32,006 nucleotides of DNA from contig JAHDWN010000017.1 of NCBI GenBank assembly GCA_023382675.1, positions 1 to 32,006 on the forward strand. Reading direction: 5' to 3'. The first letter of the stretch is position 1. Each line of letters begins with the position of its first letter. Source of the stretch: Anaerolineae bacterium (GTDB lineage Bacteria > Chloroflexota > Anaerolineae > Aggregatilineales > Phototrophicaceae). A program made the translations under genes and the position numbers. Positions 6,594 through 14,809 of this stretch are shown one piece after another. Under the pieces are notes generated by a model. It did not search any database, was not told the DNA's origin, and saw only the letters and a list, made by a program, of their open reading frames with translations.

Positions 6594-7865
6594 ATGAAAG
6601 CACTCCAAGTACGAGCAGTGACAAGTGGGGAGTACGAAGCGCTTCAGGCAGGTCTGCATTCGCCATCGGCCTTCACGGTTCGACGCTGCCAGATCGTGTT
6701 GATGAGCGCTGAAGAGGGTCTCAAGGCAGGTGATATTGGGCAACGGTTGCGTTGTAGCGACCAGTGTGTGCGCGATGCTATCCATGCGTTTGAGGCAGAA
6801 GGACTGCAATGTCTGCACGAGAAATCGCGAGCGCGACATAGTCCGCAGGCGACGTTCGCTGGAGCCGGTCGCGAGTGGTAAAAAAGCCTGATCCAGCAAT
6901 CACCGCGCAGCTTTGGCTATGACAGCAGCCTGTGGACGCTGGACTTGCTGGCAGAGTTGGCGCATCAGCAGGGCTACAGTGAGCGCGATGCTGTTGGCGA
7001 ATTAATCTTTCTCTCTTTTAACCCTCACCCCGTCGCTTTGCGCCGCCCCTCTCCCTGAGGGCCGAGGGGTTAATAGCGCGCTTACTCCCCTTCTCCATGA
7101 GGGAGAAGGGGCCGGGGGATGAGGGCAAGAAGTCATTTCATGAGTTCGCCAACAGCACCGAGCGCCAGGTTAACCCGGACACCGTTGGGCGGGCACTGGC
7201 ACAAGCGGGGATTGAGCGGAAACGAGCCAAGCAGCGCATCAACAGCCCGGATGCCGACTATGTGGGTAAAAAAAGCGACGCGACTGGCTGAAAGCCCAAG
7301 CACAGCAACACCCAGACTGGCTGTTATTCGATGAGGATGAATGCTGGTTTTCGCGCTTTGCGCAACCCACGGCTCATGCCTGGGCGCTACCGGGTGAAGC
7401 GGTGCAGATGGTGGAGCGCGACCCAAAACGGGGCGAAAAGGAGAAAGCACTGGCCTGCTTTGGCGCCAGACGACAGGACAATGGACACGTCTATCTGTAT
7501 TTCAGTTCTGGGCAACCCTATAATGAGCACCAGTGGGTCTTTATCATCGCCTTGTTAGCTTTGGCGCGGCAGGAAGGGAAACGCGTGGTCGTCCTCATTT
7601 GGGACAGCGCCAGTTGGCATCTGAGCCAGCGTCTCCGTCAGTGGATACGCGCCTACAACCGGGCCGCGAAAGCAGCGAACGAGCCACGCCTGTTGGTGCA
7701 CGGTTTACCCCTCAAAAGTCCCTGGCTTACTCCGATTGAACCCGATTGGGTTCATGCTAAGCGCGCCGTCTGCGAGCCGCATGGCACCTTAGCGCCGACC
7801 AAATTGCGCCGCGGCTATGTGCTCACTTCAATACCGGGCCCCTCGCCAATTCATTCCAACTATGA
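6594..7865 (+). pseudogene. IS630-family DDE transposase, interrupted
   Basis: The N-terminal HTH part is intact from ATG 6594: FTVRRCQIVLMSAEEG, DIGQRLRCSDQCVRDAIHAF. A TAA at 6881 interrupts the frame (REW*KSLIQQSPRSFGYD). The MITE at 6987-7159 splits GYSER from ERQVNPDTVGRALAQAGI. A frameshift at the A run near 7266-7272 separates it from the DDE core: LLFDEDECWFSRFAQP (first Asp), VVVLIWDSASWH (second Asp) and SPWLTPIEPDWVHAKR (Glu). One more frame change near 7790 leads to SADQIAPRLCAHFN and a TGA at 7863-7865. With four or more lesions the gene is dead. Confidence 0.85.
6987..7159. mobile_element. MITE-like element (173 bp) nested in the IS630 transposase
   Basis: The ends are inverted repeats GATGCTGTTGGCGAA (6987-7001) and, reverse-complemented from 7159, GGTGCTGTTGGCGAA: 14 of 15 match. 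The element is flanked by the direct repeat GAGCGC at 6981-6986 and 7160-7165. Removing it and one repeat restores a continuous transposase reading (GY-ERQVNPDTVGRAL), which supports the boundaries. Inside are nested palindromic arms (CCCTCACCCC, CCCCTCTCCCTGAGGG, CCCCTTCTCCATGAGGGAGA). It codes for nothing and must have moved in trans. Confidence 0.75.
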
Positions 7866-7879
7866 GCTGCATTCCTGCG

Positions 7880-8194
7880 CTAGAACAGCCCCCAATCGTC
7901 GGCAACGCCTTCTTCCATCATCGACGGATCCCACATCTCCATGCCCATCTCGATGGTCGTCGGGCGCTGGAGATAATCCTGCGCGCGGCGGCGCGTCTGC
8001 TCCAGAAGCTGCGGCGCATACGGGCAGAACGGAGTCGTCATGATCATGCGGATGTGCCCGCGCTCCGGCTCGATTTCGAGGCCGCGAATCAACCCCAGTT
8101 CGACCACGTTCATGCCAATTTCCGGGTCAACGACGACGCGCAGTGCTTCGAGCAGACCTGCTTCGGTTTTTTCATCTACGGGCTGGTCGGTCAT
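7880..8194 (-). CDS. SufT/MIP18-type (DUF59) iron-sulfur assembly protein
   Basis: 104 residues. It has the DUF59/MIP18 signature: LLEALRVVVDPEIGMNVVELGLI (DPE at 23-25, GLI at 34-36), the strand IRMIMTTPFCPYAP with Cys57, and LLEQT. The family helps mature Fe-S proteins (SufT, MIP18) or forms part of PaaD-like factors. A role in Fe-S assembly fits the suf operon 850 bases away on the other strand. The start at 8194 has AAGGAG 7 bases upstream. The TAG stop (7880-7882) is made of the TA target duplication plus the first base of the IS630 end. Before that insertion the gene would have lain about 68 bases upstream of thyX. The C-terminus (WDPSMMEEGVADDWGLF) is otherwise intact. Confidence 0.85.
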   Translation of the reverse strand: MTDQPVDEKTEAGLLEALRVVVDPEIGMNVVELGLIRGLEIEPERGHIRMIMTTPFCPYAPQLLEQTRRRAQDYLQRPTTIEMGMEMWDPSMMEEGVADDWGLF

Positions 8195-9041: not shown

Positions 9042-9821
9042 ATGACTTCCGCACTCGAAATCCGCAATCTGCACGTCCAGGTCGAAAATACCCCGATCCT
9101 GCGCGGCGTAAACCTGACCGTCAATCACGGCGAAATCCACGCGCTGATGGGGCCAAACGGCAGTGGCAAGAGCACGCTTGCCAACGTCATGCTCGGCAAC
9201 CCCGCCTACGAAGTCACCGACGGCGAGATCTGCTTCGCGGGTCAGAATATCCTCGAACTGGAGCCGGATGAGCGCGCGCGCCTTGGCCTGTTCCTGGCCT
9301 TCCAGTACCCGGTCGCCATCCCCGGCGTGACGCTGGCGAACTTCCTGCGCCTGGCGATCAATTCGCGCATGAAAGCGGATGACCCGGATAGCAAGGGCAT
9401 CTCGATCCCGGACTTCCGGCGGATGATGCGCGAGCGCATGGACTTCCTCAGCATCGATCACGCTTTTGCCGGGCGCTACCTGAACGAAGGCTTCAGCGGC
9501 GGCGAAAAGAAGCGCGCCGAAATCTTGCAGATGGCCGTCCTCAATCCGCAGATCGCCATCCTGGACGAAACGGACAGCGGCCTTGATATTGACGCGCTGC
9601 GCATCGTCAGCGACGGCGTCAACAAGCTGCATGAGGCCAGCCAGATGGGCGTGCTCGTCATCACGCACTACCAGCGGATGCTCAACTACATCAAACCGCA
9701 GTTCGTTCACGTCATGTTCCAGGGGCAAATCGTCGAAAGTGGCGGCGCCGATCTCGCGCTCACGCTCGAAGAACGTGGCTACGACTGGATTCGCGAGCGC
9801 CATGCGGCAGCGGCAAAATAG
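9042..9821 (+). CDS. sufC: Fe-S cluster assembly ATPase SufC
   Basis: 259 residues, normal SufC length. This is the cytoplasmic ABC-type ATPase of the SufBCD scaffold. Walker A is GPNGSGKST (37-45), the Q-loop is in LAFQYP, the signature is FSGGEKKR (151-158), and Walker B IAILDE ends with Glu176, followed by TDSGLDIDALRIV. VITHYQRML holds the switch His. FSGGEKKR and the ETDSGLDIDAL D-loop are diagnostic of SufC rather than a transporter ATPase. The start has AGAGGAG at 9023-9029, a slightly long 12-base spacing. First gene of sufC-sufB-sufD; 87 bases separate it from sufB, with nothing notable in between. Confidence 0.97.
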   Translation: MTSALEIRNLHVQVENTPILRGVNLTVNHGEIHALMGPNGSGKSTLANVMLGNPAYEVTDGEICFAGQNILELEPDERARLGLFLAFQYPVAIPGVTLANFLRLAINSRMKADDPDSKGISIPDFRRMMRERMDFLSIDHAFAGRYLNEGFSGGEKKRAEILQMAVLNPQIAILDETDSGLDIDALRIVSDGVNKLHEASQMGVLVITHYQRMLNYIKPQFVHVMFQGQIVESGGADLALTLEERGYDWIRERHAAAAK

Positions 9822-9908: not shown

Positions 9909-12581
9909 ATGACCGATTCACCGGTTCAGAGCGATAAGCAGCTCACCGAACACGAAGCCGCGCTCAAGGACATCAACGCCTCTTACGCCGAGAAGTACGG
10001 CTTTCACGACGACGTTCAATACGCCTTCCAGGGTAAAAAAGGTCTCACCGCCGAGATCGTCCGCCAGATCAGCGAGATGAAGAACGAGCCGGGCTGGATG
10101 ACCGAACTCCGCCTCAAGGCCTACGAAGAATTCATCCGCCGCCCGATGCCGACCTGGGGCGCGGATCTCAGCGGCATCGATTTCGACGACATCTATTACT
10201 TCGTCCGCGCGACCGACCGCCAGGGAAAATCCTGGGACGACATCCCCGAAGAGATCAAGCGCACCTTCGACCGCCTCGGCATCCCCGAAGCGGAGCAGAA
10301 GTATCTCCAGGGTGTGACCGCCCAGTACGAGAGCGAAGTCGTCTACCACAGCATCCGCAAGGATCTGGAGTCGAAGGGCGTCTACTTCACCGACATGGAC
10401 AGCGGCCTGCGCGAGCACCCGGAGATCGTGCGCGAATACTTCGGCACGATCATCCCCTACAGCGACAACAAGTTCGCGGCGCTCAACAGCGCAGTCTGGT
10501 CGGGCGGCTCGTTCGTCTACGTGCCTAAAGGCGTCCACATCGAGATGCCGCTGCAAGCCTACTTCCGCATCAACACGCAGAACATGGGCCAGTTCGAGCG
10601 CACGCTCATTATCGTGGAAGAGGGTGCGTATGTACATTACGTGGAAGGCTGTACCGCGCCCATTTATAGCTCAGACAGCCTGCACAGCGCCGTGGTCGAG
10701 ATCATGGTCAAGGATGGCGGACGCTGCCGCTACACGACGATCCAGAACTGGTCGCCCAATGTCTACAATCTCGTGACCAAGCGCGCCGTTGCCCAGAAAC
10801 GCGCAACAATGGAATGGGTCGACGCCAATCTCGGTTGCCTCGCTGAAGGCTCGACCGTGACCACGCCGAGCGGCATCAAGACGATTGAGTCGCTGGAAGC
10901 GGGCGATCAAGTTCTGTCCTACGATGACACTACCGGGAAGCTGGTCTTCCGCAAGGTGGTCGCCAAGAAGTTCTCCGGCTATCAGCCTGTGCATATGGTC
11001 TCGGCGAGCGAGCGCTCGCTTCAGGTGACGGCCAATCACCCGTTCTACTCATATGTTTACAACCCTGACGCGCCGAAGAAGCTGGGACGCTACCAGCTAG
11101 CCTATGTTCGTGCCGATCATTTGACAGAGGCTATCATCCCTCGTGTCTCGCTCGATTACGGCACGCCGCATCGTCTGCAACTGCCTGCGCTTGAGACACA
11201 GTTTGACTCCAAGAATCAGTATGCCGATGGCCTGACCATGAAGCGGACACGCAAGTCACGCATGGACTCACCTGAATATACGACCGACGATATCATGTGG
11301 TTGTTCGGCTATTGGATGGGTGATGGCAATATCGACGTTACGCCAGGAAAAACAGGCGGCGTGATGCGCTTCGCAAGAGTCGGTTTTTCGACACCGCGCA
11401 CAGACCGCGCCCGCAATCGCCTGACCGAAACGATGACTGCGCTCGTAGATGCAGAACCGTCAGAACGTGAGGATGGACATCATCTCGCGTGGAACAGCGT
11501 CGAATTGGTCCAGTTCTTCCAAGTCAACGGTTTCGAAGGCAAAGCGCGTGACAAGCGTGTTCCTGCCTGGGTCTGGTCACTGCCTCAATCACAGCGACTC
11601 GCTTTCATCGCCGGTTATCTTGATGCTGATGGAACGATCGTTGAGAGTAAGCGCCAATTCTCTGCGAAGTCGAGCAACCGCGCATTGCTCGACGATATGG
11701 CATCTCTACTTGTGACTCTTGGAATTACGCCGCGCATCTACACGGAATTCGACGAGCCGAAGCGAGTCGTCATCATGGGCAATGAATGCATCGCCCATGG
11801 TGCATATCGCCTGGAATTCGCCCTCGACGATCGGCTGTTCACGCATGTAAGCGCGACGTTGCGACAGAGAGCAGAGGCAGTTCCTACCGCAAAGACAATC
11901 TATAATCGTACCGTTGGACGTTCTCAGATCGAACTCAGCGAAGACGTGGAGATCGTCACCGTCCACGTGTCCGAACCCACGACAGAGGCGGTTCCCACCT
12001 GGGACATCGAGGTTGAAGGGACGGGCAACTTCGTCTCGCAGGGCTTCATCGTCCATAACTCCAAGCTCACGATGAAGTACCCGGCGGTGATCCTGGCGGG
12101 TGAAGGTGCGCATGGCGAGGTGCTCAGCATCGCCTTCGCCGGGCACGAGCAGCATCAGGACGCCGGTGCGAAGATCACGCACCTTGCGCCCAACACCAGC
12201 AGCCAGATCATCAGCAAGTCGATCAGCAAAGACGGCGGGCGCGCCAGCTATCGCGGCCTGCTCAAGATCGCGGAGGGCGCGGACAACGCCAAGAGCAACG
12301 TCGTCTGCGACGCACTGCTGCTCGATGCCAAGAGCCGCTCGGACACCTACCCGACGATTGAATGCGACGCCAAGAACGTCACCATGGGCCACGAAGCCTC
12401 CGTCAGCCGCGTCGGCGAAGATCAGCTCTTCTACGCCATGAGCCGCGGCATGACCGAGGACGAAGCCAATGCCATGATCGTTAACGGCTTCATCGAGCCG
12501 CTCGTCAAAGAGCTGCCGATGGAGTATGCACTCGAACTCAACCGCCTGATCCAGATCCAGCTTGAAGGGTCGATTGGGTAA
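9909..12581 (+). CDS. sufB: Fe-S scaffold protein SufB with an intein
   Basis: 890 residues as translated; 482 after removal of the intein (residues 310-717), the usual SufB size. The N-extein holds KYGFHDDVQYAFQGKKGLTAEIV, VYVPKGVHIEMPLQAYFRIN and EEGAYVHYVEGCTAP. The C-extein continues SKLTMKYPAVILAGEGAHGEVLSIAFAG, ISKDGGRASYRGLL, YPTIECDAKNVTMGHEASVS and GEDQLFYAMSRGM. The Cys in YPTIEC is at the position of the conserved functional Cys of E. coli SufB. SufB assembles the nascent cluster with SufC and SufD in the cytoplasm. The start has AGAGGGA about 10 bases upstream. Because the intein must splice out, Suf function here depends on splicing. Confidence 0.96.
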   Translation: MTDSPVQSDKQLTEHEAALKDINASYAEKYGFHDDVQYAFQGKKGLTAEIVRQISEMKNEPGWMTELRLKAYEEFIRRPMPTWGADLSGIDFDDIYYFVRATDRQGKSWDDIPEEIKRTFDRLGIPEAEQKYLQGVTAQYESEVVYHSIRKDLESKGVYFTDMDSGLREHPEIVREYFGTIIPYSDNKFAALNSAVWSGGSFVYVPKGVHIEMPLQAYFRINTQNMGQFERTLIIVEEGAYVHYVEGCTAPIYSSDSLHSAVVEIMVKDGGRCRYTTIQNWSPNVYNLVTKRAVAQKRATMEWVDANLGCLAEGSTVTTPSGIKTIESLEAGDQVLSYDDTTGKLVFRKVVAKKFSGYQPVHMVSASERSLQVTANHPFYSYVYNPDAPKKLGRYQLAYVRADHLTEAIIPRVSLDYGTPHRLQLPALETQFDSKNQYADGLTMKRTRKSRMDSPEYTTDDIMWLFGYWMGDGNIDVTPGKTGGVMRFARVGFSTPRTDRARNRLTETMTALVDAEPSEREDGHHLAWNSVELVQFFQVNGFEGKARDKRVPAWVWSLPQSQRLAFIAGYLDADGTIVESKRQFSAKSSNRALLDDMASLLVTLGITPRIYTEFDEPKRVVIMGNECIAHGAYRLEFALDDRLFTHVSATLRQRAEAVPTAKTIYNRTVGRSQIELSEDVEIVTVHVSEPTTEAVPTWDIEVEGTGNFVSQGFIVHNSKLTMKYPAVILAGEGAHGEVLSIAFAGHEQHQDAGAKITHLAPNTSSQIISKSISKDGGRASYRGLLKIAEGADNAKSNVVCDALLLDAKSRSDTYPTIECDAKNVTMGHEASVSRVGEDQLFYAMSRGMTEDEANAMIVNGFIEPLVKELPMEYALELNRLIQIQLEGSIG
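10836..12059 (+). other. Intein in SufB with LAGLIDADG homing endonuclease
   Basis: 408 residues, from Cys310 (CLAEGSTVTTPSGIKTIESL, block A) to Asn717 (WDIEVEGTGNFVSQGFIVHN, blocks F and G). The penultimate residue is His and the first C-extein residue is Ser718: a class 1 intein with all splicing residues present. Block B is VTANHPF with its His. Two LAGLIDADG-type motifs are seen, LFGYWMGDGNI (465-475) and FIAGYLDADG (566-575), each keeping its acidic residue, so the endonuclease may be active. Codons in the endonuclease part (for example 11640-11760) use more A/T at the third position than the exteins, a sign of transfer. The insertion point lies between NLG and SKLTMKYP, in a conserved part of SufB. 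Confidence 0.95.
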
Positions 12582-12718: not shown

Positions 12719-14098
12719 ATGGTTGCCGCACGACAACGACGCACGATGGCCGAAGCGCCGCTCTACACCCAGGCGGATGTCGAAGCCCTCAGCGCCCGCA
12801 ACAATGAACCCCAGTGGCTGCGCGAAAGCCGCATCGCCGCCTGGGAACTCTACGAAATGCTGCCGATGCCCTCGCGCGAGATGGAAGAATGGCGACGCAC
12901 CGATTACCGCCATGTCCGCTGGGAAGAAGCCAGCCAGCTGCTCAACGGCGCACAGCCGACCTTCGACAACATCCCGGAGGCGATGCGCGAGCCGCTGATC
13001 GGTGAGGAGCAAGGCGGCATGATCGCCTTCGCCAATGGCAAGCTCGTCCGCCACGAACTCAACCAGTCGATGGCCGCGAAGGGCATCATCTTCACCGACC
13101 TGCTCACGGCCTGCCGGGAATACCCGCACCTCGTGCGCGAAAACCTGATGACCAAGGCCGTCCAGCCAGGCGACGGCAAGTTCGCGGCGCTGCACGCAGC
13201 CATGTGGACGCACGGCGTGTTCATGTACGTGCCGCGCGGGGTGGCTGCCGAACTGCCCTTCCACGTCGTCATGTACAACACCGACGACGGCGCGACCCTG
13301 GGGCACATGCTCGTCATCCTCGAAGAGGCCGCCGAAGCCAAAGTCCTGGTCGATTACCAATCGGCAGGCGGCGCGGCGCAGTCCAGCTACATCGGCGCGA
13401 CCGAGCTGATCATCGGCCCGGCAGCGAACCTGACTTACGTTGGCCTGCAAGATTGGAATCGCAGCACCTTCGAGTTCAGCCACCAGCGCGCCCGCGTCGG
13501 CAGCGATGGCAACCTCGACTGGATCGTCGGCACGATGGGCGGCGAACTGGTCAAATCGTTCATCGAGGTTGAACTTGACGGTCAGGGCGCGCACGGGCGC
13601 GTCAGCGGCATGTTCTTCGCCGATCACGAGCAGCTCTTCGACCACGACACGCAGCAGAATCACAACGCGCCGCTGACGACCAGCGACCTGCTCTTCAAGG
13701 GCGCGGCCAAGGACGAAGCCCGCTCCGTCTGGCAGGGCATGATCAAGTCGCTGCCGGATATGCAGAAGATTGACGGCTTCCAGGCCAGCCGCAACCTCGT
13801 CTTGAGCGAGGACGCGCGCATGGACGGCATCCCCGGCCTGGAGATCCAGGCGGATGATGTGCGCTGCACCCACGCCGCCACTTTCGGCACGCTCGAAGAA
13901 GAGCCGATCTTCTACCTCATGAGCCGCGGTGTGCCCCGCCCGGATGCGGAATTGATGGTGACGGAGGGCTTCTTCGACGAGCTGCTCGCCCGGATCCCGT
14001 TCGAGCGCGTCCGCGACCGCCTGCGCTACGCCCTCGATCTCAAGATCGTCGGCCATGCGCTCGACCACCGCGACGACGAGGCCGCCGCCGAATTCTAG
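12719..14098 (+). CDS. sufD: Fe-S cluster assembly protein SufD
   Basis: 459 residues, the SufB/SufD beta-helix family but lacking the N-terminal SufB hallmark regions. Landmarks are PQWLRESRIAAWELYEMLPMPS, EWRRTDYRHVRWEE, FMYVPRGVAAELPFHVV, GAHGRVSGMFFADHEQLFDHDTQQNH, DLLFKGAAKDEARSVWQGMI, ADDVRCTHAATFGTLEEEPIFYLMSRGV and AELMVTEGFFDELLARIP. The conserved HAA/RG core at the C-terminus supports SufD. It forms the SufB-SufC2-SufD complex. The ATG at 12719 has AAGGAG at 12701-12706 (12-base gap); a second ATG at 12746 is possible. It is followed by a strong terminator, so the operon seems to end here; no sufS or sufU follows. Confidence 0.95.
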   Translation: MVAARQRRTMAEAPLYTQADVEALSARNNEPQWLRESRIAAWELYEMLPMPSREMEEWRRTDYRHVRWEEASQLLNGAQPTFDNIPEAMREPLIGEEQGGMIAFANGKLVRHELNQSMAAKGIIFTDLLTACREYPHLVRENLMTKAVQPGDGKFAALHAAMWTHGVFMYVPRGVAAELPFHVVMYNTDDGATLGHMLVILEEAAEAKVLVDYQSAGGAAQSSYIGATELIIGPAANLTYVGLQDWNRSTFEFSHQRARVGSDGNLDWIVGTMGGELVKSFIEVELDGQGAHGRVSGMFFADHEQLFDHDTQQNHNAPLTTSDLLFKGAAKDEARSVWQGMIKSLPDMQKIDGFQASRNLVLSEDARMDGIPGLEIQADDVRCTHAATFGTLEEEPIFYLMSRGVPRPDAELMVTEGFFDELLARIPFERVRDRLRYALDLKIVGHALDHRDDEAAAEF

Positions 14099-14208: not shown

Positions 14209-14454
14209 GTGAGCGCAGTGGAACAAGAAATCCTGGAAGCCGTCAGACGATTAGATCCGAAGCAGCAGCAGCGCGTGCTGGAGTTTGTTCGCACCATCAC
14301 GCCGAAAGGTGGGACAACGTTCGCAGAAATGCGTGAAATTGCCCGCGAAATCGCGTTTCCCAAAGAAGATCTGGATGAAATAGCGCGCATCATCGAGGAG
14401 GAGTTCGAGCAGGTACGCGGAGACGAGTTGGATGTCCCAGACCTTGATCCTTGA
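14209..14454 (+). CDS. Putative antitoxin of a type II toxin-antitoxin pair
   Basis: 81 residues from a GTG start with GGAGG at 14194-14198. The sequence is charged and helical: LEAVRRLDPKQQQRVLEFVRTI resembles the opening of DUF2281-type small antitoxins, and the Glu/Asp-rich tail (IARIIEEEFEQVRGDELDVPDLDP) could wrap the toxin. No typical DNA-binding fold is obvious. It overlaps the PIN-domain gene by 23 bases, as antitoxin and toxin usually do. A possible -10 box TATGAT sits at 14167-14172, with no good -35. Function is inferred mainly from the partner. Confidence 0.75.
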   Translation: MSAVEQEILEAVRRLDPKQQQRVLEFVRTITPKGGTTFAEMREIAREIAFPKEDLDEIARIIEEEFEQVRGDELDVPDLDP

Positions 14455-14809
14455 CACAGTCAGCGCCATCGCCACTCTCAACGGCAATCTGATACTGCCA
14501 GATGACACCATTCTCCATCTACCAATTATTGCGTTGGGCGAACTGTATGCGGGTGCCCAGCGATCAGCGCGAGCACATGAAAACGTTCGGCGTGCAGAAG
14601 TCCTGGCTGCACGTTATGCAATTCTTGTGTGCGATCACGATACCGCTCGGCAATATGGGCGCATCGTCGCGAGCCTGCGCAAGAAAGGCCGCCCGATTCC
14701 TCAGAACGATGTCTGGATCGCGGCGCTGGCTCTCCAGCACAATCTCGCCCTCCTGACTCGTGACGCACATTTCCAACACGTCGATGGTCTAGCGGTACAG
14801 GGATGGTGA
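14432..14809 (+). CDS. PIN-domain ribonuclease toxin (VapC-like)
   Basis: 125 residues, normal VapC size. PIN acidic residues are present: Asp8 in LILDTVSAI, Glu37 in ALGELYAGA, Asp93 in PIPQNDVWIAALA and Asp111 in LLTRDAHF. The usual LDTN has Val in place of Asn, which is tolerated in the family. VapC toxins are Mg-dependent RNases that cut tRNA or rRNA and are held by the antitoxin. The start lies inside the antitoxin gene (23-base overlap), so the two are translationally coupled. The pair sits directly behind the suf terminator, a spot where such modules often settle. Confidence 0.88.
   Translation: MSQTLILDTVSAIATLNGNLILPDDTILHLPIIALGELYAGAQRSARAHENVRRAEVLAARYAILVCDHDTARQYGRIVASLRKKGRPIPQNDVWIAALALQHNLALLTRDAHFQHVDGLAVQGW

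Follow-up and report, generated by a model that had tools for sequence, protein, structure and literature searches.

The SufB (Pps1) intein of Mycobacterium tuberculosis is, according to the part of PMC8891592 that covers it, a class 1 intein with an endonuclease, which carries Cys1, a block-B His, a block-F Asp, a penultimate His and a terminal Asn, and which is flanked by an N-extein His-5 and by Cys+1. The intein in sufB of the window, that is of the whole analysed stretch of 32,006 nt, resembles it in all these internal features, but it differs in length (408 as compared to 359 aa), in its site and in its +1 residue, which is Ser. The M. tuberculosis site appears from sequence comparison to correspond to HYVEG/C, after residue 247 in the numbering used here. 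In the window SufB, HYVEG/CTAPIY is uninterrupted and the insertion is found after G309. The SufB intein of Mycobacterium leprae, which has 386 aa and is named SufB-b in a legend of PMC5050341, is described as probably inserted elsewhere in SufB than its M. tuberculosis counterpart. The question raised in a preliminary description of this DNA, namely whether the insertion site is shared with known SufB inteins, has a divided answer: the site is common to many other inteins, as detailed below, but it differs from that of M. tuberculosis. With respect to architecture, TliVMA (7qss, 7qsu) and PI-SceI likewise consist of a HINT domain with an inserted LAGLIDADG endonuclease (Z scores of 22-29), but they reside in other host proteins and share only ~20% sequence identity with the window intein. 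In the open-licence literature, our search found no paper on SufB inteins in Chloroflexi or on inteins in Anaerolineae; papers were returned for inteins and protein splicing in Chloroflexi at large.

The sufB frame of the window (9909-12581, + strand) is uninterrupted over 890 aa and contains an insert of 408 aa (residues 310-717), which is flanked by ...VDANLG and SKLTMKYP. Without the insert, which sits between G309 and Ser310, SufB has 482 residues and is otherwise intact. The features of the locus are as follows:

9042..9821, + strand: sufC, upstream neighbour (name inferred; ABC_tran match and place beside sufB)
9909..10835, + strand: SufB N-extein, residues 1-309 (TIGR01980 match; continuous alignment to intein-free SufBs)
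10836..12059, + strand: intein, 408 aa (junctions NLG/C and HN/S as defined by the empty alleles of 13 same-genus genomes and by 27 inteins at this site)
10836..10838, + strand: Cys1 codon, first splicing nucleophile (C in 27/27 aligned inteins)
11028..11039, + strand: block B T-A-N-H, residues 65-68 (T65, N67 and H68 in 27/27)
11166..11870, + strand: homing endonuclease domain, with approximate borders at residues 111 and 345 (LAGLIDADG_3; roughly the part missing from four short same-site inteins; GC3)
11301..11330, + strand: first LAGLIDADG motif LFGYWMGDGN, acid Asp163 (D in 22/23 and E in 1/23 full-length inteins)
11604..11633, + strand: second LAGLIDADG motif FIAGYLDADG, acid Asp265 (D in 23/23 full-length inteins)
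12003..12059, + strand: blocks F and G with Asp390, His407 and Asn408 (invariant in 27/27; TIGR01443)
12060..12581, + strand: SufB C-extein, from Ser+1 onward including the stop codon (SUFBD_core match)
12719..14098, + strand: sufD, downstream neighbour (name inferred from gene order; SUFBD_core, SufBD_N)

Further away in the window, a DDE_3 transposase-like frame (7402-8043) overlaps, on the opposite strand, a small FeS_assembly_P gene (7880-8194), and a PIN-domain protein, possibly a VapC-like toxin, is encoded downstream of sufD (14432-14809). No second SufB or further SUFBD_core gene was found in the genome, which is 96% complete; one NifU_N protein with a frame of 147 residues is present. 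Another gene of the same genome also bears inteins: the frame of a B12-dependent ribonucleotide reductase (G000:C9:93189-93842; L161:1308-7001), at least 1898 aa long, has three intein N-terminal matches and therefore probably contains three inteins.

Profile searches assigned the host protein to SufB (NCBIfam sufB TIGR01980, 700 bits, cut-off 346) and the insert to inteins with an endonuclease, as NCBIfam intein_Nterm (26.6, cut-off 24.5), NCBIfam intein_Cterm (23.5, cut-off 15.6) and Pfam LAGLIDADG_3 (60.7, cut-off 22.5) all scored above their thresholds. The Pfam Intein_splicing model remained below its cut-off (26.4 versus 35.8), which counts against an intein. The same holds for block F. 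A block-F His occurs in many inteins, and the blocks B, F and G are named here as is usual for inteins; the window intein reads TGNF at block F, without His at the usual place. The block names also follow those in the part of PMC8891592 mentioned above. The set of splicing residues is complete and invariant: Cys1, Thr65, Asn67 and His68 of block B, Asp390 of block F, His407, Asn408 and Ser+1 are present in the window intein and in 27/27 aligned same-site inteins, the window included. This alignment was compiled from searches of relatives and of the taxonomic class and comprises 23 inteins of 405-408 aa and four of 167-188 aa. In addition, both LAGLIDADG acids, Asp163 and Asp265, are kept.

Searching solved structures by sequence only returned one match, PI-PkoII (2cw7; E 0.00037). 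An AlphaFold model built from 44 sequences (pLDDT 90.1, pTM 0.89) matched TliVMA 7qsu best (Z 28.9 over 322 residues), followed by PI-PkoII 2cw7 (Z 25.6) and the PI-SceI entries (Z 21.7-23.4). The Ssp DnaB mini-intein 1mi8 gave a Z score of 19.5 with an rmsd of 1.4 over 132 residues (DnaB mini-inteins about 19), and I-DmoI 5a0w matched the middle of the model, residues 157-358 (Z 15.1). Accordingly, the model predicts a HINT fold as in class 1 inteins and, between its halves, an I-DmoI/PI-SceI-type fold as expected for an endonuclease with two acidic LAGLIDADG motifs. The further hallmarks of class 1, i.e. Cys1, the block-B TxxH, the penultimate His, the terminal Asn, the +1 nucleophile and a single frame shared with both exteins, are likewise present. 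Upon removal of the insert, the flanks align with 13 intein-free SufBs of the same genus in one continuous stretch at 84-94% identity. As judged from sequence, the insert is an intein and no chance insertion, because the flanks join into one SufB alignment in 13 genomes, the splicing residues are invariant in 27/27 inteins and the model matches known inteins. The preliminary description had placed the 408-residue element at 10836-12059 between NLG and SKLTMKYP, which is correct to the base; its lists of splicing residues and LAGLIDADG acids agree with ours, the flanks do match SufB without the insert, and the intein-free relatives it had suggested looking for exist in the form of these 13 genomes.

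We consider it very likely that the element in sufB after Gly309 is a class 1 intein equipped with a LAGLIDADG homing endonuclease of its own, which would splice and home and was probably gained horizontally. This reading is based on the intact frame, the catalytic residues, the confidently predicted fold, conservation within the family that shares this site, the low dN/dS of the endonuclease and the 13 empty alleles. The precursor would self-splice canonically, that is by an N-S shift at Cys1, transfer to Ser+1, cyclisation of Asn408 aided by His407 and an O-N shift, to yield the 482-residue SufB and the free intein. The latter would then cut intein-less sufB at the codons for NLG/SKxTMKYP and be copied in during repair. 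Following this scenario, the window lineage would have acquired the element by horizontal transfer once it had diverged from its closest sequenced relative, with another Chloroflexota lineage as the probable donor.

An alternative is that the intein is already decaying, with a dead endonuclease and retained splicing. Decay does occur in the family, as four of the 27 same-site inteins have lost the endonuclease, and the GC3 of the endonuclease part is low: it amounts to 0.583 over residues 111-350, as compared to 0.640 for the whole intein, 0.822 and 0.850 for the N- and C-exteins, and 0.815 and 0.856 for sufC and sufD, respectively, which bears out the lighter GC3 reported earlier. However, the window intein has full length, keeps both acids and shows neither a stop codon nor a frameshift, and its dN/dS relative to the nearest intein (L081) is low, namely 0.105, at a dS of 1.7 that is near saturation. 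Twelve pairs of inteins were chosen for this comparison, of which 11 were computable. Endonuclease dN/dS ranged from 0.068 to 0.191, close to the values of the splicing parts (0.055-0.255), although dS of the endonuclease exceeded 1 in three of the 11 pairs, the window pair included. These codon comparisons place the endonuclease part under purifying selection, and we regard a dead endonuclease as improbable.

The distribution of the element is patchy. Thirteen of the 14 further genomes in the genus have an empty site, including the nearest relative (G002), whose SufB is 94% identical; the remaining genome (G014, 78% complete) gave no sufB match. Within the taxonomic class, at least 25 of 396 genomes carry an intein at site 309 (22 full-length, three short), which is a lower bound since at most four candidates were scored per genome; partial or weak matches, among others in G169, G366, G318 and G404, were left unplaced at a site. 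Two further same-site inteins (G048, G050) came from the search of relatives, and two members of the window's own taxonomic family (G019, G016) carry one as well. Contigs of named genomes provided 67 loci (L081-L147), 23 of which are, judged by length, the same contigs as in our genome set. Site 309 is matched in 60 of them, in L145 only in part, six match after residue 141 (L135, L138, L140-L143), and L146 gave no SufB. According to their record titles, these 60 loci at site 309 belong to Chloroflexota (32), Actinomycetota (24, of which 14 Acidimicrobiia), Acidobacteria (2), Gottesmanbacteria (1) and Proteobacteria (1); odd titles should not be trusted, as bins may hold foreign contigs. A locus titled Candidatus Gottesmanbacteria (L101) has a same-site intein 62% identical to that of the window, which may reflect either long-range transfer or a misplaced contig. 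The inteins at these 60 loci share the junction (NLG or NIG/C ... HN/S) and the motifs with the window intein, and those matched over their length at >300 residues are 41-75% identical to it in the best segment. They differ in their hosts; in some the endonuclease is missing, and some have one or two additional SufB inteins as neighbours. Apart from the four short forms of 167-188 aa, a named locus (L144) has a short intein of 146 aa, also without endonuclease. One sufB, that of G122, is split over several frames in the assembly and was excluded from conclusions, while being kept as a 295-residue row in the extein tree. Thus, the window intein is a member of a widespread same-site family; it is real, largely ordinary and not unique.

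To trace its origin, we compared a SufB extein tree (94 rows) with an intein tree of 64 rows, from which 23 redundant named loci, L145 (a fragment), L146 (no SufB), and L138 and L140-L143 (other site) had been dropped. The exteins group the window with G002 (97), then with G013 (96) and G003 (97), all three of which are intein-free. By path in the intein tree, the nearest relatives are L081 (75% identity), G042 and L084, and only then the same-family G019; in the best tree, the closest partner of the window is G042 (94/84), followed by L081 (85/48). G042 belongs to another taxonomic family than the window, and in the extein tree the SufB of L081 groups with that of G042, outside the window's group. 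The ratio of intein to extein distance is 0.76 between window and L081 and 0.68 between window and G042, as compared to 1.97 for G019; among the 497 pairs with extein distances >0.2, the 5th percentile lies at 0.86. Moreover, the endonuclease dN between window and L081 (0.178) is below that of the C-extein (0.217), whereas the endonuclease dN is the higher one in nine of ten other computable pairs and between window and G019; in the exceptional pair (L087/L095), only 37 C-extein residues precede the contig end. AU tests on extein data rejected a clade of window and L081 (p 4e-5). On intein data, window with G019 was not rejected (p 0.193), and window and L081 as a pair were leaned against, albeit not rejected (p 0.07). 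Since the intein data reject neither grouping, no single donor is picked out. The extein data do not force window and G019 together, as L086 stands beside them (p 0.203).

It could be argued that the intein is old in the genus and was inherited vertically with repeated losses. This would account for its presence in G019 and G016 and agrees with the intein data on window and G019. However, several precise deletions would be required, as the site is unoccupied in the sister G002 and in 12 other genomes, and the distance ratios point to a donor outside the taxonomic family, which makes such a history unlikely. A co-conversion tract, as might accompany a gain, was not visible between window and G002 when polarised with G013 and G003, and this counts against a gain: within 60 bases of the site they differ by 15-18% versus 4-14% elsewhere, with too few sites and no consistent side. 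We also considered phages or plasmids as carriers and found no member of the intein family among them or among viral contigs. Viral contigs gave eight weak loci with the alignment query (23-33% identity) and one with the single protein (26%), the best 20 of 111 plasmid records had 23.5-24.0% identity, and the best of 29 phage records reached 27.3%. As none of the 13 same-genus genomes in which sufB was found has the site filled, the nearest relative included, we conclude that the intein is a sporadic mobile element that was probably gained recently.

If so, homing may have left traces in the flanking codons. The +1 serine codon (12060-12062) is TCC in the window, AGY in 11 of the 13 empty same-genus alleles and TCG in G013 and G003; a change between AGY and TCN takes two base changes. 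A simple rule that occupied sites have TCN failed, as 15 of 64 occupied sites have AGY (49 TCN), while empty loci have seven TCN and 25 AGY (32 loci matched by pattern, of 38 tried). Codon type and occupancy were associated over 87 tree rows (Fisher's p 0.0002), but a test on independent pairs, which takes kinship into account, gave no significance (median p 0.375). Across the class, an empty site with TCN occurs in 159 of 396 genomes and one with AGY in 101 of 396; the 25 occupied genomes of the class draw divide into 18 TCN and seven AGY. In a post hoc statistic, based on counts entered by hand, restricted to the nine families with both states and treating genomes that are related and not independent, the occupied codon differed from the family majority in 15 of 24 cases (shuffled mean 6.3, 0/20000 as high), and without family f11 in six of 15 (mean 1.8, 32/20000 as high), which is suggestive only.

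Three intein sites exist in SufB of these genomes, after residues 141 (AQYE/S), 247 (HYVEG/C) and 309 (NLG/S). The SufB precursor of G306 (L074), with 1,527 aa, has inteins at all three, and those of L127 and L142 apparently do so as well. Tentatively, and with considerable doubt, SufB could be viewed as an intein hot spot of long standing among Chloroflexota and Acidimicrobiia, in which three sites are used independently and are all filled in some genomes, where the element at site 309 still homes and leaves a synonymous footprint, the occupied +1 codon tending to the type (TCN or AGY) opposite to the one carried by empty alleles within that family. Such a footprint might have been copied in with the intein or might mark alleles resistant to cutting.

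Finally, a regulatory role has to be weighed. The switch reported for the M. tuberculosis SufB intein is a disulfide between Cys1 and Cys+1 (PMC8529194, citing Topilina 2015), and oxidants or zinc are described as splicing inhibitors for other inteins in SufB and DnaB (PMC8529194, PMC6195587; see also PMC7360933), with cysteine-based inhibition stated to be non-universal among inteins (PMC6195587). At site 309, Cys occupies +1 in 0/27 inteins and Ser in 27/27. The only other Cys of the window intein, C318, sits within the endonuclease domain without being conserved (C in 17/23 full-length inteins; the position is missing from the four short ones), and no Cys is present in VDANLG (-1 to -6). 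As conserved Cys partners, we dropped both C318 and C37, the latter being found in 17/23 full-length inteins and missing in the window. Hence, Ser+1 and the lack of a conserved second Cys rule out the M. tuberculosis mechanism here, and the earlier proposal that a redox or metal response carries over from other SufB inteins finds no support, the M. tuberculosis intein also occupying another site.

What could still be envisaged is that the intein has been retained because it switches SufB in response to redox state or metals, with Cys1 as the sensor. Cys1 is the sole splicing thiol, no second SufB gene was found, and the effects of oxidants and zinc on other inteins provide precedents; splicing may possibly respond to Cys1 by itself being oxidised or binding a metal. 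Nevertheless, besides the absence of a Cys1-Cys+1 disulfide, of a second conserved Cys among 23 full-length inteins and of Cys at -1 to -6, the intein is sporadic and missing from all 13 same-genus sufBs examined, the low endonuclease dN/dS argues for mobility, and inhibition through cysteines is not a general property of inteins. We therefore hold it very unlikely that conditional splicing maintains the intein, and a regulatory role is not needed to account for its presence.

Taken together, the mobile class 1 intein in the window belongs to a well-populated family of Ser+1 SufB inteins outside mycobacteria, which offers a dense natural series of full-length, endonuclease-less and empty alleles, with occupied and empty ones within one genus. 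As it resides in the same host protein but lacks Cys+1, the residue that the published switch depends on, this same-site family provides a natural control against which the claimed role of SufB inteins as redox sensors can be judged.
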